Positions 3,122-58,068 of a stretch of DNA of 64,000 nucleotides are shown piece by piece. The DNA is from Nymphaea colorata. Lineage: Eukaryota > Streptophyta > Magnoliopsida > Nymphaeales > Nymphaeaceae. The stretch spans positions 8,379,503 through 8,443,502 of the forward strand of contig NC_045143.1 in assembly GCF_008831285.2 (NCBI RefSeq). Direction: 5' to 3'. The translations under genes were made by a program, and so were the position numbers. The number at the start of each line of letters is the position of its first letter. Positions within the stretch are counted from its first letter, which is position 1. The notes beneath the pieces were generated by a model, which did not search any database, had not been told where the DNA came from, and was given only the letters and a program-made list of their open reading frames with translations.

Positions 3122-3485
3122 TAAATTCGATTTGAGTGGGATATTCGTCCGATTCAATCCAAAAAAATTGGATATGAAAGAAAAAAGTATTTGATTAAGA
3201 AACCCGATCAGATTCAGATATAATAAATGGCATCCGATCAAATTCGGATTCGGATTCAGATTAAATTCACTTTTAGACAAACATCTTGTATCTAATGCTA
3301 TTAAATTTTGAAAATTGTTCAAAATTCAGATTCGGATTTGGATATGAATATAAAAAATCAAATTCGGATATGGTTTTTCTTTATTTGAATTCGAATGCGA
3401 ATTTGAATCCAAATATGTGAATATCCGAAAAAATGGATATGATTAAAGATATATCCGATTCGAATTTGATCCGTTGACATCCCTA
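3122..3485. mobile_element. hAT-like MITE, ATCCGA-rich family B
   Basis: A 364-bp element packed with GGATATCCGAAT-type submotifs. Its right end reads GTTGACATCCCTA, the reverse complement of the TAGGGATGTCAA terminus seen at 15838. The flanking 8-mers GCGGCATG (3114-3121) and GTGGCATG (3486-3493) match at 7 of 8 positions. An 8-bp target-site duplication and TA-starting termini fit the hAT superfamily. No coding capacity. Confidence 0.7.
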
Positions 3486-5927: not shown

Positions 5928-6080
5928 TAAGGTCCGCTTAGGGCTGGCCCCACCTCAATTTTTTTTTAAATTGTATATAAATTTTAAAAAAATTTACTTG
6001 TTTTATATACAAAATTTTAAAAAATGATATTTTAACTCTAATCAAAATTTTAAAACTTTAATTCGACTCTTTCCCCTAAT
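5928..6080. mobile_element. Truncated hAT MITE, family A
   Basis: Begins GAGCGGAGCCAAGG and continues into the family interior, including CCCCACCTCAATTTTT and AATTTTAAAACTTTAATTCG. It stops without the second terminus, so it is a 3'-truncated copy. It helps define the family interior used to recognise the outer element at 22414-25082. Confidence 0.6.
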
Positions 6081-8247: not shown

Positions 8248-8731
8248 ATGGGAGATAGAAGTTGGATTTGCAAAAAGAGGTAATATTTGATTATGGTGCA
8301 CAACCATTATTGGTTTTAAAATAAGTACTAATCGTCATTTTCTTGAATAGGTCAAGTGTTGAATATGTGACCGGAGTAAAAGAATTTCTTGAATTTGCCA
8401 TTGCCAATAGTATAGTTATTAATGGGAAGATCAAATGCCCATGTCAGAAATGCAGCAACAATTTGTATCAAACTCTGAGCGATGTTGTTGATCATATGAT
8501 ATGCAATGGAATTTGTCCAAGTTATACTATATGGTATCATCATGGAGAATCTTCATCTTCAAATACAATTAATAATAACAATGAGTCGCTTGAACCAGAT
8601 GCAAAAGAGATAGACAAGTTATCAGACGATACATTGAGGACATCGACTTCAAAAGACGGATTAGGTGATCAAGGGCATGCTTCTATAGATAGTCCTAAGT
8701 TAGATTTAATTTTATAAATCCTTTTATTGTG

Positions 8732-12536: not shown

Positions 12537-12908
12537 TAGACTGTCATTGGATGGGTTTCAAATCAGATCATATATCTGATTTGAATACAAATGAAGAAAA
12601 GTCATATCTGAATCCGAAACCAAAATTCAATTTCACAATCGGAATATGATTGTTTACATTCATATCTGAATTCGAATTTTAAACCGAATTCGGCCAATTT
12701 TCAAAGTGTAAAAACATTGGATATAAAATATTTATTGAAAAATAAATCTAATCCGAATTTGAATGTGATAGGATATTTATGTATATCCGAATTTGATCGA
12801 ACGTGATTTCGTAAATCCGAATCCGACACAATTTCTTAATCAGCTATTAAATTTTATTCCATATCTTATTTTTTGGGAATGGTTCGGTCACATCTCCGAT
12901 TCAAATAA
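12537..12908. mobile_element. Truncated family B (ATCCGA-rich) hAT-like MITE
   Basis: Starts TAGACTGTCATTGGAT, a diverged TAGGGATGTCAA terminus, and carries the same interior as 15838-16205. The opposite terminus is missing after TCTCCGATTCAAATA, so it is incomplete. Confidence 0.6.
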
Positions 12909-14391
12909 GCTTTCACAGTCCTTGGGTCATTCCTCCCCCAAGAAAAGAAGTCCCAACTCCATGGATTGAGCTTTAGGTCTTGACGCAACTGTGAGTTTCT
13001 CTTTAACAAGTGACATTAAAGTCATGTTGTCTGTTTATCTTTGACATTTATGTAGGTTAAGATGAAAAACACGACACATCATTAAACATAAGAGAAATTA
13101 AAACACTAAGTGTAAACGTGGACGACTTTTTCTATATTAAAGAGTTACACGAGTCTACTTAAGGAGATAGCTTAACCAGAAATGACTTCATAAGAACATT
13201 TAGACGATAATAGCTGAATGAAGTGATATTTCAGAATGGCAAGTAAAATTGCATCGTTTGCATGAAGGGAGGATAAAGATGCACAACGTATTCCTCGTTT
13301 GGCACTGCTTGAATACAAAGCTCAGTAAAGGATTTTGATGGCAGAAATTGCATATGAAATTTAAAATATTGTTGTCAACCAATATAACAATATTCATAAC
13401 GATGATATTTCATGGTGAATTACTATAAATTATTTTGTTAGTCATTTAACATTGAACAATTTGGTTGCCAAAGATGTACTGATCATGGGTCATGTTATTA
13501 GTAACTTGACAAATGAGAAGAAAAAAAAGAAAAAATCTTTCCTACTTAATAAATCTTGTCAAATAAAGAACCTAGAAAAAGTATCGTAGATAGTCACATG
13601 CAAAGATCTAGTAGCTTAAATCAAAGTCTTAGTAGCTTAAGCCAAACCCCAGCATCAATGTTGTGGATGACTACTGTCATTACTAGCAAGTTACACGATA
13701 AAAGGATAGATGTATCAATATATTTTAGAAGTTAAAATAGAAGTTTAGTAATTAAGGATGTTCTCATAGTTGTGCACATTTTGACTTTAAAATAAGCTTA
13801 CATATCTCTTCGTTTTTCGTATGAGAAATAAGATTTGGAGAGGTTTCTCATAACATGCTTGTAAATGTGTTCCTGAGTGTGAGAAAAGTGTTTTGCTCTG
13901 TCATTAGGAGAGCGAATCGATCATTTTTTGTGCAAAGAAAGTGATTTCTCAAGTTAAAAATGTTTGAGAAAACACCTTGTACCCAATTTCACAAATACGG
14001 TATATTCATTGTGGCTGTGCGGTGGTTTTCACTCTTCTTCAAAATTTAAAAAGTTTTTCACATAAATGTGCTTGAAAATTTAATTAGTTAATATATTATT
14101 ATATAAATGGTGCAAGCTGTTTTATATTTTGGTCATGCCCAGTGCCTTCCACTTTGTTTAAAAAAAGGGCAAGTTTATGGACATGGCTCTCAAAGATGCA
14201 TGGACTCAGAGTCAAGTTTGGCCATCTAAAATTTGGGTTGTCAGTGGATTTTTGGAAACCAAGTTTTGACAAAACTTCATTCTTATAAAATGGCGTTCTG
14301 TCGTTCAAGCTACCTTAGCCTTGGAGATTTAACATTTCAATACCAATTACATGGGTTTCCTTTTGTTTGCTACACAAGGGGAAACCATATT
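12909..14391. other. Intergenic, no gene seen
   Basis: AT-rich sequence with short frames on both strands, none showing a family motif. Confidence 0.5.
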
Positions 14392-14746: not shown

Positions 14747-14909
14747 CAGTGGCGGAGCCACATGGTGACTGGTGTGAGCATACTCTTAAAATTTCTTTAT
14801 TTTTAAATGGGCATCTTTAAACATTTATCCTTATATATAAATGGCCCACCAAATATGAATATTTTTAAAAGAATGCCTTTCCAGCCAATTTTTTTTGGCT
14901 CTGCCACTG
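14747..14909. mobile_element. Intact hAT MITE, family A, perfect TSD
   Basis: A 163-bp element. The left terminus CAGTGGCGGAGCCA and right terminus TGGCTCTGCCACTG are inverted repeats with one mismatch. The 8-mer CTTTCAAG is present exactly on both sides (14739-14746 and 14910-14917). This is the clearest evidence in the window that the GGAGCCA-ended repeats are hAT-type MITEs. Confidence 0.92.
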
Positions 14910-15837: not shown

Positions 15838-16205
15838 TAGGGATGTCAACTGATCAGATTAAAATCAGATATATCCTTAATCATATCTATTTTTTCAGAT
15901 ATTCATATATTCGGATTTAAATACGCATAAAGAAAAGTCATATACAAATCTGAATTTGAACATGATTTTGCCAATTTTCAAAATGTAATTGCATTAGATA
16001 CAAGATATTTGTCTAAAAATGAATTCGATTGGATATTTATATATATTCGAATTTGAATCTGGATTTGAATCCAATCGGATGCCATTTATTAAATCTGAAT
16101 CGGATTTGATTCCTTAATTGGATGTTATTTTTTTTTTATATATCTAATTTTTTCGGATCGGTTCGGTCGAACATCCGATTCAAATCAGATATATTGACAT
16201 CATTA
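15838..16205. mobile_element. Family B (ATCCGA-rich) hAT-like MITE
   Basis: A 368-bp element that starts TAGGGATGTCAA and ends TTGACATCATTA, an imperfect inverted pair. The interior is dense in GAATCGGAT-type words and lies in the opposite orientation to the copy at 3122-3485. The flanking 8-mers GTTGCAAC and GTTCTAAT agree at only 5 of 8 positions, so the duplication is weak here. Confidence 0.65.
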
Positions 16206-17253: not shown

Positions 17254-17301
17254 TACGTGTCGAGAGCCTTCATTAGTTCCAAGCCAAAAATGTTACGTGG
17301 C
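17254..17301 (+). promoter_or_regulatory. Pair of ABRE-like ACGT elements
   Basis: TACGTGTC (17254-17261) and TACGTGGC (17294-17301) lie 40 bp apart, 118 to 71 bp before the ATG of the SRPBCC gene. ACGTG(G/T)C is the core bound by ABA-response bZIP factors, and paired copies are typical of ABA- or stress-responsive promoters. Regulation by ABA is an inference from the motifs only. Confidence 0.45.
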
Positions 17302-17371
17302 GACCTTTCTGCCCTTTATCTCAGTCTTTCAGGAAGAAACAAGAATTGGAGACCAATTCTCTGTGGAAGCA

Positions 17372-17920
17372 ATGGCAGAAGAAGAGCAGCAGCAGGTGGA
17401 GGCGGCGAGGCACGAGGGAAAGGTGAGCGCCACCGTCCGGGGAGCGACGGCGGACCAAGTGTGGCCTCTCCTCGCCGACTTCTGCAACGTCCATCGCTGG
17501 ATTCCCGGCGTCAGTACATGCCGCCTGGAAGGTGGGGTCGCCGGAGAGCCGGGATGCGTCCGGTACTGCGTCGGCAAAGGCGAGCCCGCGGACGGAGGGG
17601 ACGTGCCGTGGGCGAGGGAGAAGCTGACGGTTATTGACCACGCTGGCCGGAAGCTGAGGTACGTGGTCTTCGAGAACAACATCGGGTGGAAGAACTACGA
17701 GGCGGCCCTGGAGGTCGTGGAGGGGGAGGAAGGTGGGGAGGGGTGCATCATCGAGTGGTGCTTCAGGATGGAGCCGGTTGCCGAAGGGAACGGGTGCGAA
17801 GTCGTACCCTTCGTGACGTCTGCTCTGGAAGGGATGGTCAAGACGATGGAGGAGTTTCTTGCCGCCGCCGCCGCCGCCGGCAGCGATGTCCAAGAGTTGG
17901 TGTGTACCGTGGTGGCCTAG
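17372..17920 (+). CDS. SRPBCC / lachrymatory-factor-synthase-like protein 1
   Basis: A 182-aa intronless protein of the polyketide cyclase-like (Bet v 1-like, START-related) fold, which binds small hydrophobic ligands in a cavity. Family hallmarks are ATADQVWPLLADFC (25-38), GEPGCVRY (58-65), WAREKL (80-85) and ENNIGWKNYEAALEV (101-115). The positions matching the published Arg71, Glu88 and Tyr114 of onion LFS are all kept: Arg64, Glu83 and Tyr109. An upstream frame extension to 17297 lacks an ATG, so 17372 is the first in-frame ATG. The C-terminal part holds an Ala run coded by GCC repeats. The coding region is GC-rich against AT-rich flanks. AATAAA lies at 18028. No signal peptide is evident, so a cytosolic site is likely. 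The ligand or substrate is unknown, and most plant homologues outside Allium are uncharacterised. Confidence 0.9.
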   Translation: MAEEEQQQVEAARHEGKVSATVRGATADQVWPLLADFCNVHRWIPGVSTCRLEGGVAGEPGCVRYCVGKGEPADGGDVPWAREKLTVIDHAGRKLRYVVFENNIGWKNYEAALEVVEGEEGGEGCIIEWCFRMEPVAEGNGCEVVPFVTSALEGMVKTMEEFLAAAAAAGSDVQELVCTVVA

Positions 17921-21795: not shown

Positions 21796-22413
21796 TGCGT
21801 TTTTATACAAAGTTAATTGGATTATAACATTGTTGGAAATTTTCAAAATTAATACTTGAATATTGATGGTGATTATAAGTACGCCGACTGGACAGTGTCA
21901 AATACATATCCAAAATTGACACCTTCAATAATAAAAAATAACCTGTTGTCAATTGCACTCTAGGTTGTCATTAACTAATATTAAGTCAGGTTAATAAGAA
22001 AAATGAGGAGAGTATCCCTAATATAAATAAACTAAATGCTTATTCATTTGGATTAGGCTCTCTAACTATGCAACATAATGTTATTAATCATGTCTAATTA
22101 TATCTAAATTCGTTTGGTAAACTATGTTTTGTTAATGCTACATAGAAAGATGTGTAGAAAAACTTAAATATGTATATTTACCAAAATAGTTATACTTTTA
22201 TGTTTTTTTTTAAACGAGAAAATAGTGCATTTTAGCAAACTTAATAGTTGACCCTATAAAAATATGCTCTACCAAGGGGTAGTTATTAGTGTACTAATTG
22301 TTTTTTTGTTTATTGTTAAAAAGAAGAATATATACTCTCTAAGGGTTGAAGGTTGTCTGCATTTTTCCTGATCCCAATGTTTAAAGCTGCTTTGAAACGT
22401 AGGTAAGAACAGC
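21796..22413. other. Intergenic, AT-rich, no gene seen
   Basis: No feature recognised between the GAGCTCGAG repeat and the nested transposon. Confidence 0.5.
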
Positions 22414-22984
22414 CAGGGGCAAAGCCAGAAATTTTTCAGAGGGGAACCAAATTAAAGTTTCTAAATTTTGACACAGTTCAAAATATCATTTTTCAAAATT
22501 TTATGTAGGGCAAATAAATTTTTTTAAAATTTACATATAATTTTTTTTTTAAATTGAGGTGGAGCCAGGGCCCATGCCGTTAGGGAAGTCAATGGATAGG
22601 ATTCAGATCCGATATCCATCCAAAATGCCTTTAAAAAATCGGATATGGTAAGCAATTTAACATCCGAATAAGAAAATCGGATCGGATTCAGATTTAAGAA
22701 ATAACATCTGATCGAATTCGGATTCGGTTTTAAGTAAATATCTGATCGGATATTTAACCATCTTATCTAATCAGATACGGATTCAGATTCAGTTTTAAGT
22801 AAATATCCGATCGAAAACTTAACCATCTTAACAAGTATATCTCAATCCTGAGTTGATACCCAAATCTGAATTACACCTTGATATCCGAATCTGAACCGTG
22901 AGTTGATGTCCGAATCCGAAATCTAAATTACAATTTGAAATCCGAAATCCAAATTACAGCTTGATATCCGAATCTGAACCATGA

Positions 22985-23343
22985 GTTGGTGTCCCCATGT
23001 TTTGAAGTTGAGAATATGAATGGTTGTGCAAAAGATCTAACCAAACACACCAACTTAAAGTTATGTCATAAAAGAAATATAAATTGTATATGAAGGTATA
23101 ATCTGATTAAGATGTAATGGCTTTAAGAAGTTGCATATAATAATAGTCAAATAGTTACCATGAACATCATTTAACATAAAGTATTTAAAAATATATCATA
23201 TAAAACTAATTAATTAATAATTCATATCGTGTTTAATTAAACATTGTTGTGTAAACAAGCAAACTATTATAGTTGAAGCATCAATTATACAGTTAAGACA
23301 TCAACTAAACAAGATATCTTAAATAACATATTTATTTAATTAA
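22985..23343. repeat. Left inverted arm
   Basis: Reads GTTGGTGTCCCCA... to TATTTAATTAA and is the inverted counterpart of 24372-24706. Long exact blocks are shared, for example the stretch around AATAGTTACCATGAACATC, with small indels elsewhere. Confidence 0.85.
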
Positions 23344-24010
23344 CTCAATTAAATTAGAAAAAACCAATAATGTCTTTCTAGAAATAATAAGGGTCACTTG
23401 ATTTAATAATTCTAAATAAGTGATTAACATTAAACAATAGTTTACTCCATCAAAATATGTTATTATTTAAAAATAGACAAATCAATGTTCAATATGCACA
23501 ATTAATATGAAGAAATTATAAAATGTGATATGAATAACTTATAAAAAAAAACATAAAAATCATATGAAGAACTTGTGGAAAAGTATGAAAATCATATAAA
23601 AATATGTTTTATAATAAATAAAAATCTTAAACGCAATATGATATTCATTTTAAGTTGAAAGCATCTTCATTTGTATAATCATATAATTCATTCAAAAGTC
23701 TTAGGTATTTGAATTATAACACATAATTGACAAACTTGAAAGCTAAAACCTTTAAATTGTAGGAAAACAACAAATTGTTCGATATGTGACATTTATCAAC
23801 ATTGACATGCTTATATTATCACTTTTCCTCAATTATCAACTTTGACAAAATCAACTCCACATCCCAACTTGTGAGACAAAACTCAAAATGACATTTATAA
23901 TGAGTACAACACCTCATAAAAAAATGTTTTCAAAAAATTGGATATGTGAAAAAATAGTTTTAATTAGTTTGAATAATTAGTTCTTAGATAACACACTTAA
24001 ACTCTTTTCT

Positions 24011-24268
24011 TTAAAATTTTAAGTGAAGTCAAAATATAATTTTTTATTTTTTTTATTTTTATATATGATAAACTTACGAGTTATTTTGTTGCAAGAGACA
24101 AACTGTAGTTTTAAAATTTTAAGTGAAACAACAAAAAAAAAGTTTATTTATTTTTATATACGATAAACTTACGAGTTGTTTTGTTGCAAGAGTCAAACTA
24201 TAATTTTAAAATTTTAAGTGAAGCCAAGACATAATTTCTTAATTTTTTTATATACGATAAACTTACCA
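24011..24268. repeat. Central tandem array, about 95-100-bp unit
   Basis: TTAAAATTTTAAGTGAA starts units at 24011, 24111 and 24206, each followed by GATAAACTTAC and (in two) GAGTT(A/G)TTTTGTTGCAAGAG. The unit resembles the interior of family A MITEs such as the one at 32177, so it probably arose by tandem growth of MITE-derived sequence. Confidence 0.75.
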
Positions 24269-24371
24269 ACAACTGTTTCATATTAAATATATTTATTTGT
24301 GATTAATTTTCATATTTTTAAAAATACTCATTTTATTAAAATTTCTAGATACAAGTTTTTTTTAATATATT

Positions 24372-24706
24372 TTAATTAAATAAACATATTATTTAAGATA
24401 TCCTATTTAGTTGATGTCTTAACTATAATAATTTGCTTGTTTATACAAAAAAATTTAATTAAACACAACACGAATTATTAATTAATTAGTTTTATGTGTT
24501 ATAGTTTTAAATACTTTAAGTTAAATGATGTTCATGGTAACTATTTGACTATTATTATATGCAACTTCATAAAAGCCATTACATATTAATCAAATTATAC
24601 CGAAATATATAATTTATATTACTTTTATATCATAACTTTAAGTTGGTGCGTTTGAATATACCTTTTGCCCAACCAGGTTGCAACTTCAAAATGTGGGGAC
24701 ACCAAC
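24372..24706. repeat. Right inverted arm
   Basis: Begins TTAATTAAATAAACATATTA and ends GTGGGGACACCAAC. Reverse-complement match to 22985-23343 over nearly its whole length. Confidence 0.85.
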
Positions 24707-25082
24707 TAAAGCTCTCAAGTTCAGATTCGGATATAATTTAAAAGTTGGATTCGGATCGGATTCGGATATAACTTAAAAGTCAGATTCGGATCACATTCAA
24801 TATAACTTTAAAATGGGTTTCGGATCGGATTCAGGTATAACTTAAAATTCAGATTCAGATCAGATTCAAGTATAACTAAAAATCAGATTCGGATCGGATT
24901 CAAGTATAACTAGAAATCAGATTCAGATGTAGATTTTTAAAGTCGGATTCGGATATGGTATAAACTTCTTCTCATCCGAATGCGAATCTGAATATATGAA
25001 TATCCGAAAAATCGGATATGACAAAAGATATATCCGATCCGAATCCGTCCCTACATGCCATCCCCCCTTGGCTCTGCCCCTG

Positions 25083-25460
25083 ACTACAGTGTCGTGCATT
25101 CACTGTTTATAGTCTAGAAAAATAGTTTTCAAGGGATCAAATTAACAATCAGACTTTGAACAACCTATTAGTCCAACCAAATACGAAAAGCCTAACTATT
25201 TCAAAAGCCTAACTATTTCAATACTCAATATGAGAAGAGAATTCAAACTTGAGTATTTCTACCATATGTCACAACAAAACAGAAACTACTTGCTTTGATT
25301 GTTCTGCTATGAATGCACATTCGGGTGCAAATCCGTTGGGAAATGAGCCCCCTTCCCTTTTATTGCCAAAAAATAAAATAAAAATTACAAGACACCAACC
25401 AACCTACCCTCCATGAACGTGTATTAAAATTTAGGAAAACGAAAACAACATTCAAGAGAT

Positions 25461-28119: not shown

Positions 28120-28644
28120 CTACTCCTGAGCACCGCCTGGAGTGTGGAGAAGGAACTTCTCCATCCTCTTGGCCATCTCTTCCAAAGTATGCCCCAGGTA
28201 AGCCGCCACTCCCTCCTCGCTCCCTCCTTCCACCGGCTCCATCCTGAACAACCACTCGATCCGGCACCCTCCTCCATCCTCCGTCATGCCGCCGCCCTCG
28301 ATGACCTCCATCTCCGCCTCATATTGACCCCACCCGATGTTGTTCTCCGTGATCTCGTAGCTCAGCTTCCGGCCCGCGCGGTCGATGCTCACCAACCTCT
28401 CCCTCGCCCACGCGACGCCCTCCCCCTCCGCAGATTCGATGCCCTTCCCGGCGGTGTAGCGAACGCAGCCGGGCTCTCCGGCGACTCCACCTTCCAGCCG
28501 ACAGGTGTGAACGCTGGGAAACCAGCGGTCGAGGGAGCAGAAATCGGCGACGAGGGGCCATACTTGGTCCGCCGTGGCCCCACCAATGGTGGCGCTCAAT
28601 TTGCCCTCCCACCTGACCAACTGCTGCTGCTCTTCCTCTCCCAT
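28120..28644 (-). CDS. SRPBCC / lachrymatory-factor-synthase-like protein 2
   Basis: A 174-aa intronless protein of the same fold as genes 1 and 3. Seen: ATADQVWPLVADFC (23-36), TCRLEGGVAGEPGCVRY (47-63), WARERL (79-84), ENNIGWGQYEAEMEVIEG (100-117) and a final amphipathic helix near LEEMAKRMEKFLL. The LFS-equivalent residues Arg62, Glu82 and Tyr108 are kept. It is closest to protein 1, with an identical GGVAGEPGCVRY block. The frame extends 15 codons upstream without an ATG, so the start at 28644 (MGEEEQQQ) is chosen; it also aligns with the MAEEEQQQ start of gene 1. It is transcribed against genes 1 and 3. A 94-bp TA tract lies about 220 bp upstream. The natural ligand is unknown. Confidence 0.9.
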   Translation of the reverse strand: MGEEEQQQLVRWEGKLSATIGGATADQVWPLVADFCSLDRWFPSVHTCRLEGGVAGEPGCVRYTAGKGIESAEGEGVAWARERLVSIDRAGRKLSYEITENNIGWGQYEAEMEVIEGGGMTEDGGGCRIEWLFRMEPVEGGSEEGVAAYLGHTLEEMAKRMEKFLLHTPGGAQE

Positions 28645-28862
28645 GATTTCCTCCTCTTCCTCTTCTCCTTTTCCCGTCTTCTCTTTCAATTTCTAAGAGA
28701 ATGATGAGAAACAAATGGTAGGGGGACAAAGGGGAGCGAAGATGGAGTAAGACCTGGAAGGTCAGGTCGAATCAGGTGCTGGTGACGACATGTCCATGCG
28801 CATTTGTCTAATATATAATATCCATATTAGCACACAAACCAAGGTAGTTTCGGACTTACCTA

Positions 28863-31017: not shown

Positions 31018-31210
31018 GAGGACGGAACCAAAGTGAGCCCGGCATGGGCCCCCCACAAAAAAAAAATGGAATTTAAAAATTTACCTGAAAATCTTAAAAA
31101 ATTTCATTTATCCTACATAAAAATTTCGAAAAGTGATATTTTGGCTCCTGTCAAAAAATTTGAAACTATAATTCGGCCCATTTCATGAAAAATTTCTGAC
31201 GCCACCCTTG
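31018..31210. mobile_element. hAT MITE, family A, perfect TSD
   Basis: A 193-bp element. It starts GAGGACGGAACCA and ends TGACGCCACCCTTG. The 8-mer ATCTCATC is exact on both sides (31010-31017 and 31211-31218). The interior has the family signature AAACTATAATTCGGCCC. The termini are more diverged than at 14747, suggesting an older copy whose target duplication survived. Confidence 0.88.
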
Positions 31211-32176: not shown

Positions 32177-32360
32177 CTGGGGGCGGAGCCAAAGGTTAGG
32201 GGTCAAATTATAATTTCAAAATTTTAACAGGAGTTGAAATATAATTTTTCAATTTTTTTTTATATAAGATAAATGATTTTTTTTAAAATTTACATGTAAA
32301 TTAAAAAATATATATATATATTTTACAAGAAAATGTTTTGACTAGAGGGTAGTCTCCTTC
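32177..32360. mobile_element. Truncated hAT MITE, family A
   Basis: Begins CTGGGGGCGGAGCCAAAGG and carries GTCAAATTATAATTTCAAAA and ATATAATTTTTCAAT, then ends without a second terminus. Its interior matches the central array at 24011-24268. Confidence 0.6.
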
Positions 32361-32403: not shown

Positions 32404-33709
32404 GTGACATTTGGATGACACTCTGAAAAAGCAACATTTTGTGAAATTTAGTTTTTTAAGCAGTTTTGGAAACTTGGTTTATGTGTTTGACTGAGAAACT
32501 CAAAAACCTCGGGGGAGGGCGGGGCAGGTTTATCGGGCCCTGTTGAAAAAAACGTGTCTTGTTTAAAACTGAGGGGGCATTTGGATGCCACTTCAAAACT
32601 TGGCAAGTTTTGCCTTCAAAACCATTTTAACTTGGATTTGAAGGCAAGTTTTGCCTCTAAAATCACTTTAACTTGGATTTTATGTGTTTGACTGAAGAAA
32701 GCAAAAATCTTGGGGAGGGCTGGGCAGGTTTATTGGGTCTTGTCGAAAAAAAAGTGTCTTGTTTAAAATTGAGGGGGGGTTTGAATGCCACTTCAAAATT
32801 TGGATTTGAAGGCAAGTTTTGCCCCTAAAACCACTTTAACTTAGATTTGAAGGCAAGTTTTGCCTCTAAAATCACTTTAACTTGGATTTTATGTGTTTGA
32901 CTGAAGAAAGCAAAAATCTTGGGGGAGGGCTGGGCAGGTTTATCGGGTCTTGTCGAAAAAAAAGTGTCTTGTTTAAAATTGAGGGGGGTTTTGAATGCCA
33001 CTTCAAAACTTGGATTTGAAGGCAAGTTTTGCCTCTAAAACCACTTTAACTTAGATTTGAAGGCAAGTTTTGCCTCTAAAATCACTTTAACTTTGATTTT
33101 ATGTGTTTGACTGAAGAAAGCAAAAAACTTGGGGGAGGGTTGGGCAGGTTTATCGGGCCCTGTCGAAAAAAAAGTGTCTTGTTTAAGACCGAGGGGGCGT
33201 TTGAATGCCACTTCAAAACTTGGATTTGAAGGATAGTTTTGCCTCTAAAACCACTTTAACTTGGATTTGAAGGCAAGTTTTGCCTCCAAAATCACTTTAA
33301 CTTGGATTTATGTGTTTGACCGAAGAACACAAAAATCTAAGGGGAGGGCGGGGCAGGTTTATGGCGCCCTATCGAAAAAAACGTGTCTTATTTAAAACTG
33401 AGGGGAAGTTTGGATGCCACTTCAAAACTTGGATTTGAAGGCAATTTTGCCTCTAAAACCACTTGAACTTAGATTTGAGGGCAAGTTTTGCCTCAAAAAC
33501 CACTTTTTGAAAGTATTCGAATGACAAGAAAATGATGTTTCGTTAAAAAAAACCTGAAACCCACTTAGGTTTCTCACCAAAAACCTGGTTTTTACTTCGT
33601 CATCCAAACATGCAAACTAGGTTTCAAAAACTCATTAAAAACCAAGTTTTCACAAAATCTGGTTTTGTGAAAACCAAGTTTTAGAGGGTGGCATCCAAAG
33701 GCCCCCTGA
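32404..33709. repeat. ~210-bp tandem array bounded by inverted ends
   Basis: GTTTAAAA(C/T)TGAGGGG... starts units at 32561, 32761, 32971, 33181 and 33390 (periods 200-210). Each unit reads TTTG(G/A)ATGCCACTTCAAAA, then two copies of AAGGCAAGTTTTGCCTCTAAAA, then a GGGGAGGGCTGGGCAGGTTT block. The right border GTGGCATCCAAAGGCCCCC (to about 33705) is the inverse of the unit start, so the array looks like a TIR element whose left part was amplified in tandem. Non-coding. Confidence 0.8.
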
Positions 33710-35722: not shown

Positions 35723-36256
35723 ATGGCAGAGGAAATGCAGCAGCAGCAGGACATGTACGAGGGGAAGGTGAAGGCCACCATAAAAGAGGCGACGGCGGAC
35801 CAAGTGTGGCCTCTCCTCGCCGATTTCTGCGGCATCCACAGGTGGATGCCGAGCGTCGAAACACGTCTGGACGTAGGCGTCGCCGGAGAGATCGGCTGCG
35901 TCCGGCACTGCGCCACGAAGGACCTGTCACCAGTCAACGGCGAGAGCGTGGGGTGGGCAAGGGAGAGGTTGACGAGCATCGACCACGCCAGCCGGAAGCT
36001 GAGCTACGTCGTCGTGGACAACAACATCGGCTGGAGGCACTACAAGGCGGAGTGGGAGGTCGTCGACGAGGAGGATGCTGGAGGGTGCCGGGTCGAGTGG
36101 TCGTTCAGGATGGAGCCGGACGAGGAGTGGGGCGAAAAGCCGCTAGGGCCTCTCGTGGCGTCTGCTTTGGAGACGATAGCCCGGGCGATTAATGAGGAGT
36201 TCCTTGCAAGGGATGATGGTGGTCAAGGCCGGTATGCCGTAGACGAGAGGCAGTAA
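35723..36256 (+). CDS. SRPBCC / lachrymatory-factor-synthase-like protein 3
   Basis: A 177-aa intronless member of the same fold and the most diverged of the three. Seen: EATADQVWPLLADFCGIHRW (22-41), AGEIGCVRH (54-62), WARERL (78-83), NNIGWRHYKAEWEVVDEE (100-117) and WSFRMEPDE (126-134). The LFS-equivalent Arg61, Glu81 and Tyr107 are kept, while the residue after Arg is His rather than Tyr. The C-terminal tail (DDGGQGRYAVDERQ) is unlike the other two. Same strand as gene 1 and opposite to gene 2. The coding part is GC-rich. The ATG lies six bases after a TTTTTGCAG that could be a splice acceptor. Substrate unknown. Confidence 0.9.
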   Translation: MAEEMQQQQDMYEGKVKATIKEATADQVWPLLADFCGIHRWMPSVETRLDVGVAGEIGCVRHCATKDLSPVNGESVGWARERLTSIDHASRKLSYVVVDNNIGWRHYKAEWEVVDEEDAGGCRVEWSFRMEPDEEWGEKPLGPLVASALETIARAINEEFLARDDGGQGRYAVDERQ

Positions 36257-37149: not shown

Positions 37150-40100
37150 GTACAAGAATGACGATGAGTTTGGAACGAATGGTATGGAGGGGAGTGATGG
37201 GCAATGGTTTAGTGAGTATATCTGCTAGTTGATGTGAGGATGGAATATGTTTAAATAATAGTTGATTTTAGGCAATGCGGTCATGAACAAAGTATGTGGT
37301 TAGATGTAGATTATTCAATGGTTGTATCAGCAGTCCAAAGTTAACGGTGCTTTTAACGTAGCGCAGTATCCTTTTAACTACTGACCAATGCTTTTGAGTG
37401 AGTCTGTGCATAAACTGACAAACTTTGTTTACTGAAAATGCTAAGTCGGGTCATGTTAGTGTTAGGTATTGGAGAGCTCCAACCATCTGCTCGTATTCGG
37501 TAGGGTTGTGATATGCTACTTCGGTGCCTTGGGAGAGAGCTTTTGAGGGCAACATAGGCGATGGTGCAAGTTTGGCTTTGACCATGTTGGTTCGCTTGAG
37601 AAGGTCTAGGCAATACTGTTGTTGTGATAAAAGGAGGCCATCAGCAAAGTGACATACGTGAGTGCCAAGAAAATAGTTGAGCAGTCCAAGGCCTTTTAGA
37701 GCAAAGGCTTTGTTAAGATTTTTTATCAATGTGCCGATGTGGTGGGGAGAATTTTTGGTAACTAGTATGTTATCGACATACATTAATACATATGCCACAA
37801 AGGACACTGATAAATGAAAAGAGAGGTGTCAGTTTTGGATATAGAAAAACCATAACTTACCAAGTCTTCGCTAAGTTTTTGATACCAAGCTCGAGGAGCT
37901 TGTTTGAGACCATAAATCGTCTTTTGAAGCTTGAATACGAAATTAGGCTTTTGTTCGAAGCTGGGTGGTTGATCCATAAAAATTGTTTCATGTAACTCAC
38001 CATTTTGAAAGACATCGTGAACATCAAGTTGATGCACATCCCATTTAAAAGTATATGCAAGAGTTAAAATTGTTCTAATGGTGGTGAGTTTAACTACAGG
38101 ACTAAAGGTGTCAAAGTAGTCGACTCCCTCTTCTTACGTGTAGCCATTGGCTACATGACATGCTTTGTAGCGTTTCAGAGATCCATCCGCTTTTCTTTTG
38201 ACTTTGAATATCCATTTAAACCCTGCAATGTTTTGATTGGCTGATCGATGAACAAGGGTCCAAGTATGGTTTTCAATAAGAGCTTTATATTCATTGGTCA
38301 TTGCTTGAACCCAGTGGAGGTTGGATTTGGCTTTGGTGTAAGACATTGGTTCAAGAAGATCTAGTGGACAGTATATGTGAGGGCATTGGGTACTCTCATC
38401 CCATTCATAGAACGAGTGGTCATAGCGTGAGTGCAGGCAGGAGGGGCAATATTTGAAAGGATAGGTGGAGGCGAAGGTTCAAGAATGGGTGACGGTAGAG
38501 GTGCATCTTGAGAGAGGTGTGAGTTGGCTGGGATTAGGTGAATGATTAGTGGGCTGAATGGGTGGCAGTAGAGGTGCATCTTGAGAGAGGTTTGAGATGT
38601 TGGGATCATGTCTGAAGGTGAATGATTAGTGGGCTGGTCACTCCTTTCAACATGGTTATGACTGGAGTCTTGAGGATCTATGTTCTGTGAAGGAGGAATA
38701 TAGGATGAAGTTATGAGAATGAGTATAGAATTATGAGCTTCAGAATCTCGTTCATTCAAATTGGAATCATTTTGGAAAGGAAATTTATTTTCGTCAAAAA
38801 TCACATTGTGAGAGACAAGAATTTTGTTTGTGGTTTTGTTCAAACATAGGTATCCCTTTTGTTTGTTGCTATATCCTACATAAACATGTTCCTTTGTCTT
38901 GAAATCTAGTTTATTTTGATGGTAAGCGAAGTTTAAGAAAACATGCGCAGCCAAAATTTTTAAGGAATTTAAAATTCAGTTCAAGCCCATAGAGTTTTTC
39001 TAATAGACTATTGTGTACAGTAATATGATATGGTAACCTATTGATCAAATATACAACAGTGGCAAAGGCACAAGACCAAAATTTTTGAGGCATATGAACA
39101 TGACTTAAAAGACATAAGCCAGTTTCTACTATATGTATGTGTTTGCATTCAACGGCTCCATTTTGCTCATGCATGTGTGGGCATGAAACACGATGAGATA
39201 TCCCTGCAGCATCAAACATCGGTTTGAGAGCTGTGAACTCTCCTCTTCCATCGGATTGAAAACATTTAATTCTTCTTTCAAAAAAGTTTTCTGCCTTGCT
39301 TTTGAAATCAGAGAACATAGCCACCACATCAGATTTTTGAGTTAGGAAGTATATCCACGTGAATTTTGTGTGTGCATCAATAAAGTGGACATAATATTTG
39401 AATCTATCAAAACTTAGAACAAGTGCAGGACCCCACACATCTGAATAAATTAAATCAAGAGGCTTAGAAATAATATGAGTTGAATTAGTAAAAGGTAAAG
39501 TATGGGACTTTCCTCGTTGACAATCAATGCACACATGATTTTTAATTTGTCCATAAGAAGGCAATCCAAAACGACTAATGACTTGCTGAACCACACGATA
39601 GGCGGCATGTTCTAGACGACTATGCCATTGATCAACTGACGCTCTTTCTCCAATTAAAATGTCCTTATTGATCATGTACAGCTTATTGCGTCAGACACCA
39701 TCAAGTTTAAAATAGTAAAGGCCATTTTGACCTGGTCCTCGAAAGAGTTCACTCATTGTCTCCAGATCCTTCACAATACAAACATGAGGGTAAAATTCCG
39801 TAACAACATTATTGTCATTAGTAAATTTATGAACTGAATCAAATTTTTCGTAATACAAGGAAAATATAATATTTCTTTAAACAAGAATCTGGAATCATTC
39901 TTTGTAAAGTAGGAGAAACCATGGTTAAGAAAGTGCAAACCTGTGCCATTTCTTACTCTAACCATTTCCTTTCCTTCATAAGGAACATGCTTGGATAATG
40001 CGTTCAGATCATTTGTCGCACGATGGGAGGCCCCGAAACTGAATACCACATTGCATCATTCATTCATGCATTAAAAACATACAAAGCATGGGGAGGAGAA

Positions 40101-54340: not shown

Positions 54341-54532
54341 CAGGGGTGGAGGCAAGGGAGAAAAGGCCCTGACCCCGCCTTAAAAAATATTTTTTTAATT
54401 TCACATGTAAATTTAAAAAAAAAATTATTTGTCTTATACAAAAATAAATTTTGAAAATGATATTTAGACCCCCGTCAAAATTTTAAAACTATAATTCAGT
54501 CTCTTTATAAAAATTTTCTGGCTCTGTCTGTG
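54341..54532. mobile_element. hAT MITE, family A
   Basis: Starts CAGGGGTGGAGGCAAGG and ends TTCTGGCTCTGTCTGTG. The interior carries TTTTAAAACTATAATTCAG. The flanking 8-mers TTGGCAGC and TCGATAGC agree at 5 of 8, so the copy is old. Confidence 0.65.
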
Positions 54533-57775: not shown

Positions 57776-58068
57776 AAATAATTAGACATCTGATTAAGAA
57801 AACATCGATCCAATTCAAATTTAAGAAATAACATTCGATCATATTTATATACATTCAGATTTGGTTTTAAACAAATACCGATCGAATTTGGATTTGGTTT
57901 GAAATAAATATTCAATAAATATTCTATATAACAATACCTTTAAGTTTCGAAAGCCAGGTCTTAACATTAGTGTAGTTTGGATTCACTCTGTATTTAAAAG
58001 TTGAACCCCGATCGGATTTAGATTATAAATTTAAAAGTTGGATTCAGATATGGCATAACATTTCCTTC
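57776..58068. repeat. Family B (ATCCGA-like) fragment
   Basis: Words such as CGATCGAATTTGGATTTGG and GATCGGATTTAGATT in the usual order. Termini are not identifiable. Confidence 0.5.

Follow-up and report, generated by a model that had tools for sequence, protein, structure and literature searches.

A 64,000-nucleotide stretch of the genome of Nymphaea colorata (hereafter the window; 36.8% GC) harbors a 2,473-bp element at positions 22581-25053 that is built as a large hairpin and lies inside a smaller transposable element. This inner element is probably a non-autonomous, cut-and-paste transposon of the hAT type with a foldback architecture, which was moved in trans, landed in a miniature inverted-repeat transposable element (MITE) of a family termed A here, and is kin to MITEs of about 365 bp, termed family B. 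Its ends, flanks, long inverted arms and hexamer clusters, its homology to short relatives and its lack of coding frames are read directly from the DNA. Its membership in hAT is probable, judging from the ends, the 8-bp flanks and the subterminal repeats. A hairpin-built, non-coding transposon of 2.5 kb inside a smaller one is a real, somewhat unusual variant of a known element type, and not a new system. An original prediction made from the same stretch had proposed hAT-like ends, nesting, foldback architecture and a lack of coding capacity, each of which is supported by the sequence. MITEs are short (under about 600 bp), multicopy and non-coding, whereas the inner element has its full 2.5-kb length and a single complete copy in the window.

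Ends, relatives and nesting of the inner element

The inner element starts with TAGGGA at 22581 and finishes with TCCCTA at 25053. Its flanks, CATGCCGT (22573-22580) and the right target-site copy CATGCCAT (25054-25061, unstranded), agree at 7 of 8 positions, consistent with the 8-bp target-site duplication of hAT elements. With the ends fixed, agreement at 7 or more of the 8 positions has a chance probability between 3.8e-4 (uniform composition) and 6.0e-4 (window composition). The termini and flanks claimed in the original prediction were re-read at the same coordinates and with the same agreement.

Four shorter elements in the window are homologous to the ends of the inner element. The one at 3122-3485 (+) matches both ends in the right order (left end 75.9% identical over 108 columns, right end 73.9% over 134); its flanks, GCGGCATG and GTGGCATG, agree at 7 of 8 positions, and its left tip is degraded (TAAATTCG). 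The one at 15838-16205 (-) also matches both ends in the right order (66.7% over 150 columns and 74.0% over 100, left and right), with flanks GTTGCAAC and GTTCTAAT that agree at 5 of 8 positions and a degraded far tip. The sequence TAGGGATGTCAAC forms one tip of each of these two relatives, their other tips being the degraded ones. The third relative, at 12540-12930 (-), is degraded and has approximate boundaries, with a clear left end and a weak right end (65% over 85 columns). The fourth, at 57780-58065 (+), is a partial family-B-like element that retains parts of both subterminal zones, has no arms, and has outer ends that were not found. Neither of the latter two offers clear ends for a comparison of flanks. 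The ends of the inner element are 67-77% identical to those of the two full-length short relatives, and none of the four relatives has a match to the arms below an E value of 0.05.

The subterminal zones of the inner element are dense in ATCCGA/TCGGAT hexamers. The left zone, with the TAGGGA terminus, spans 403 bp (22581-22983, +), contains 12 hexamers, is tandemly repeated in its inner part and is homologous to family B. The right zone spans 346 bp (24708-25053, +), contains 16 hexamers and a tandem array, carries the TCCCTA terminus, and matches the corresponding end of the relative at 3122-3485 with 74-77% identity. Thus 28 hexamers occur in the 749 bp of the ends and none in the 1,724-bp core, and the 60,116 bp that remain when the inner element and its four relatives are masked contain 14 (0.23 per kb), with at most 2 in any 346-base stretch (sampled every 10 bases). 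The relatives that start at 3122, 12540, 15838 and 57780 contain 7, 5, 5 and 1, respectively. Short repeats clustered subterminally at both ends are a hAT feature, and by analogy the hexamer clusters resemble the subterminal transposase-binding repeats of hAT elements. The ATCCGA subrepeats had been described as lying in opposite orientations at the two ends. The subrepeats are present, but each end holds both orientations in a rough mirror order, mixed close to the tip and uniform closer to the core. The tandem arrays differ in unit length, with a 26-bp unit on the left (22913-22972) and a 34/69-bp unit on the right (24724-24928); such tandemly repeated outer parts of the arms are a mark of foldback elements.

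The outer element is a hAT-like MITE of family A. Its left part (22414-22580, +), recognized by its family-A relatives, starts with CAGGGGC and has CATGCCGT as its last 8 bases. Its right part (25062-25082, +), recognized by the end pattern and the reading of the flanks, finishes with GCCCCTG. The family-A end pattern (CAGGGGC...GCCCCTG) matches five places in the window, where 0.36 would be expected, and the ends of the outer element itself account for two of the five. Family-A relatives are located at 5944-6063 (-), 31075-31198 (-), 54405-54526 (-) and 32204-32302 (+), with 75-80% identity over 100-124 columns. The original prediction held that excision of the inner element restores a normal family-A MITE, and this stands in part. 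When the outer element is rejoined without the insert and one flank copy, a plausible family-A MITE results that can be aligned with the four other family-A elements. In the relative at about 31 kb, GGGCCCATGCCG runs without interruption close to the insertion site, aligned a few columns out of register. However, CATGCCG occurs near the insertion site in only one of the four relatives, the match over the rightmost 21 bp is short and loose, and the restored element's own flanks agree at 5 of 8 positions.

Long arms, loop and predicted folding

The arms of the hairpin lie at 22984-23343 (+, 360 bp) and 24372-24707 (-, 336 bp) and are identical at 298 of 335 aligned positions (89%), with 26 gap columns. 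They have diverged by a Kimura two-parameter distance of 0.12 (19 transitions, 18 transversions), and identity per 60-column block ranges from 0.82 to 0.97 (final one-column block left out). The long inverted repeats and the 1,028-bp middle domain that they enclose correspond to the plan of a foldback element. The local inverted score of the arms is 227, compared with no more than 26 in any of 200 dinucleotide shuffles, and the two long arms of the original prediction are borne out with these borders. Taken by themselves, the subterminal zones reach a score of 39 where shuffles reach 17; between the arms, the score of 29 does not exceed the 34 reached by shuffles. Counting pairs whose members lie within 4 kb of each other and align over 60 columns or more, the window contains five inverted pairs, of which the arm pair is the top one (393 bits). 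Ranks two to four are overlapping forms of one TA simple-repeat pair, and the fifth is a pair of family-A elements. The inverted similarity extends from the arms outward into the subterminal repeats as one 433-column alignment (79.9%), and the outer tip of the arms, AGTTGGTGTCC, is similar to a left subterminal repeat, AGTTGATGTCC (family D1). The arm sequences have no match elsewhere in the window at E values up to 1e-3. A 30-base exact pattern had no matches in viral and genome contig collections, as expected, both being non-plant and possibly lacking the source genome. As a separate observation, both arms open with a small inverted repeat, AGTTGGTG ... CACCAACT, which covers 72 bp in the left arm (22984-23055) and is kept in the right arm.

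Between the arms is an AT-rich loop (23344-24371, +; 1,028 bp, 21% GC) with no open frame. The longest stop-free stretch of the inner element is 62 codons over six frames, in keeping with the earlier statement that no useful open frame exists over 2.5 kb. A coding remnant was rejected from this maximum, the element's own fragments not having been compared with Pfam. A known structured RNA was likewise rejected, as Rfam gave no match up to an E value of 1 in 22300-25200. The central array that had been claimed was found at 24010-24266 (+), with a 95-bp unit in 2.3 copies (24048-24266 according to Tandem Repeats Finder) whose units are partly similar to the interior of family-A MITEs. In the forward orientation, the array scored above all 300 shuffles against two of five family-A elements (A32, 40 vs 33; A6, 32 vs 29), equaled the shuffle maximum against A31 (27), and fell below it against A54 (27 vs 31) and the outer element (24 vs 27). 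In the reverse orientation, none of the five exceeded 300 shuffles. Given this similarity in one orientation, the loop array may be MITE-derived filler, and the identification of the array as a family-A fragment is suggestive only. Also in the loop, a 35-base piece (23932-23966) is similar to the family-B end region (72-86% over 23-36 columns) and is perhaps a captured fragment.

The whole transcript is predicted to fold with an energy of -741 kcal/mol (plus strand) or -795 kcal/mol (minus strand), with 288 or 308 arm-arm pairs, respectively, for the 360-base left arm. Twenty shuffles of the plus strand gave a mean of -420 and a minimum of -448 kcal/mol. Perfectly paired stretches of 49 and 24 bp are part of the predicted fold. 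When a single arm is folded, the result is unexceptional (z -1.06), indicating that the stability stems from arm-arm pairing. The suggestion that transcripts could fold into long double-stranded RNA (dsRNA) thus agrees with a predicted fold far more stable than the shuffles, and dsRNA is possible if the element is transcribed. Production of small RNAs from the element is a structural possibility only.

Proposed origin and competing explanations

It seems likely that the inner element was moved by a transposase supplied in trans from elsewhere. A hAT transposase would cut at the TAGGGA tips, and the ATCCGA hexamer arrays would serve as its binding sites, by analogy to Ac/Ds and Hermes. The whole unit would have moved as one and entered the family-A MITE with duplication of 8 bp. 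Relative to its kin, the family-B MITEs of about 365 bp, the unit has probably gained enlarged subterminal arrays, an inverted duplication of about 350 bp and the AT-rich loop, which may include MITE-like filler. The inverted duplication may have arisen inside the element via aberrant repair or template switching. The arms (89%) are more alike than the ends are to those of the full-length relatives (67-77%); therefore, the origin of the inverted duplication, or its last homogenization, probably postdates the split from the short relatives, a timing read from one copy. In its present state the element is probably an inert relic. A larger role is improbable, in which a plant hAT lineage convergently acquired foldback structure, with enlarged binding-site arrays and long internal inverted arms, and the element belongs to a family that is mobile and multicopy, gained or homogenized its arms after the MITE split, and seeds trans-silencing small RNAs against its relatives.

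Several observations weigh against a hAT-type foldback element. The exact terminal inverted repeat (TIR) of the 2.5-kb copy is only about 6 bp, TAGGGA alone being identical at both ends. The left tip reads TAGGGAAGTCAA, and the right tip lacks the part beyond TAGGGA, so that TGTCAAC, which the short relatives have after TAGGGA at their better tips, is missing there. The left-tip pattern, with up to three mismatches, occurs at five places in the window and as often in 4 of 100 shuffles; the tips alone are therefore weak evidence, and the argument rests on the alignments of the end regions. Neither of the flanks, CATGCCGT and CATGCCAT, conforms to nTnnnnAn, the target preference quoted for Hermes, which is that of one animal element and is not taken here as defining for hAT; among the flanks of the relatives, GTTGCAAC fits and GTGGCATG does not. 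The short relatives have diverged (about 65-79%), the two full-length ones have degraded sequence at two of their four outer tips, and no tips can be recognized in the element at 57780-58065. There is no further arm-bearing copy in the window, and a scan of 10 of the 29 reading frames listed for the window detected no hAT domain. Hexamers are no proof of mobility, as the Ds-l3 and Ds-l4 elements that were tested contain them and did not move, according to the portion of PMC3260210 consulted. Long TIRs are said to set Mutator-like elements apart from other DNA transposons (PMC3310237, in excerpt). Against growth within the element, the hexamers stop and the GC content drops at the arm boundary.

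This boundary could instead mark a three-level nest, in which the core (22984-24707, arms plus loop) is a separate element with long TIRs, for example of the Mutator type, inside a family-B element inside the family-A MITE. Such a nest is unlikely, although it would account for the absence of hexamers from the core, the drop in GC from 34% to 23-24%, arms that are far more alike than the subterminal zones, and the lack of arm matches below an E value of 0.05 in the short relatives. According to the excerpted text of PMC3310237, Mutator-like elements also typically have TIRs of 100 to 500 bp, long TIRs being called their distinguishing feature. However, no inner target duplication was detected at 22940-23059 and 24640-24759, on the basis of at least 7 of 8, 8 of 9 or 9 of 10 target bases together with 9 of 12 inverted tip bases, a test that an older, decayed duplication would escape. 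Together with this absence, the inverted similarity that reaches from the arms into the subterminal repeats, and the likeness of the arm tip AGTTGGTGTCC to the repeat AGTTGATGTCC, make growth from inside the element more plausible than the insertion of a separate one. It is less likely still that the same foldback element is of the Mutator or P type, superfamilies in which the architecture is better known; Galileo, of the P superfamily, has long, internally repetitive TIRs (PMC3573991, in part). The TAGGG termini and the dense short subterminal repeats fit hAT instead, and 8-bp flanks are also present at the relative at 3122-3485. Mutator ends usually start with G, and hAT ends fit YARNG. Mutator elements have target duplications of 9-11 bp in the available part of PMC3310237, whereas the outer flanks here are 8 bp and no duplication was found around the core. 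The prospect that the foldback is an illusion caused by AT-richness and low complexity is negligible. The core has 21-24% GC and weak inverted matches are plentiful, but the arms score far above the shuffles and rank first among the inverted pairs of the window. The shuffles rule out a chance AT-rich palindrome, and with it the caveat of the original prediction that the arms might align through AT-richness by chance.

Compatible with transposon identity is a further proposal, that the element acts as, or supplies, a small-RNA locus whose read-through dsRNA would be cut by Dicer-like enzymes, with related copies silenced in trans. This is possible but doubtful. The predicted folding energies, the arm-arm pairing and the perfect runs of 49 and 24 bp are consistent with it. 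MITE transcripts can form dsRNA for 24-nt small interfering RNAs (siRNAs), and around 486 of 634 gene-proximal Arabidopsis inverted repeats yield 24-nt siRNAs, according to the part of a review used here (PMC12595863). The lack of an Rfam match up to an E value of 1, the 1,028-bp loop, the 11% divergence of the arms, the ordinary fold of a single arm (z -1.06) and the lack of matches to the arms elsewhere in the window all argue against such a locus.

Neighboring features and comparison with known systems

Other features of the window are as follows. A short, complete-looking hAT-type element at 14747-14909, CAGTGGCGGAGCCAC ... TTGGCTCTGCCACTG, has family-A-like tips and perfect 8-bp flanks (CTTTCAAG/CTTTCAAG). 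A tandem array at 32471-33506, with about five copies of a unit of about 200-210 bp and self-matches of 84-90%, starts near the family-A element at 32204-32302. Three dispersed single-frame genes with a Polyketide_cyc2 domain (PF10604), at 17297-17920 (+), 28120-28689 (-) and 35723-36256 (+), are probably a local gene family. A transposase-associated domain (PF13963) lies at 8343-8717 (+) and may be part of a CACTA element. A Copia-type retrotransposon is represented by pieces at 37454-39675 (-), with RVT_2, gag_pre-integrs and rve domains (rve below the curated cut-off), and Hydrolase_4 and DUF1677 genes are also found in the window.

Independent origins of foldback structure in different lineages have been suggested, most cases having been placed in Mutator (PMC4079207, in excerpt), and a hAT-ended foldback would add another superfamily to those lineages. 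No title describing a plant hAT foldback was among the matches listed from the open-licence literature, which is not proof of absence, and a literature search with four end motifs returned no transposon paper by title. Comparison with its short MITE relatives, which share both ends, would also let the enlargement of binding-site arrays and of inverted arms be traced directly, and long arms lend themselves naturally to small-RNA production and to ectopic recombination. The weight of the case is limited by its single copy.

The closest parallels are found in Ac/Ds, the hAT system of maize. In Ac, the duplications measure 8 bp and the TIRs 11 bp, and the transposase binds hexamers located subterminally, while many Ds2 elements contain unrelated filler; the inner element shares with Ac/Ds, including the Ds2 and Ds-l4 classes, the 8-bp target duplication and subterminal hexamers, and perhaps the short TIRs and the filler interior (PMC3260210, as excerpted). 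Subterminal repeats are similarly bound by the BED domains of Hermes (PMC10368747, in part). Unlike Ac/Ds, in which the hexamer is AAACGG, the inner element uses ATCCGA and has long inverted arms and tandemly expanded subterminal zones. MPF, a non-autonomous plant hAT element at Arabidopsis FLC, also has an 8-bp duplication; it has short TIRs, which the inner element may share, and yields siRNAs, but it is 220 bp long, and the accessible text of its report mentions no long inverted arms (PMC2289841). Tetris and DAIBAM of Drosophila virilis differ in that they are found in animals and that their authors, in the text consulted, suggest membership in Mutator. Galileo of Drosophila is alike in its long, internally repetitive TIRs, in which the number of tandem repeats may differ between the two TIRs of one copy, but it has a P-type transposase and 7-bp duplications (PMC3573991, same excerpt), whereas the element described here has hAT-like ends and 8-bp flanks.
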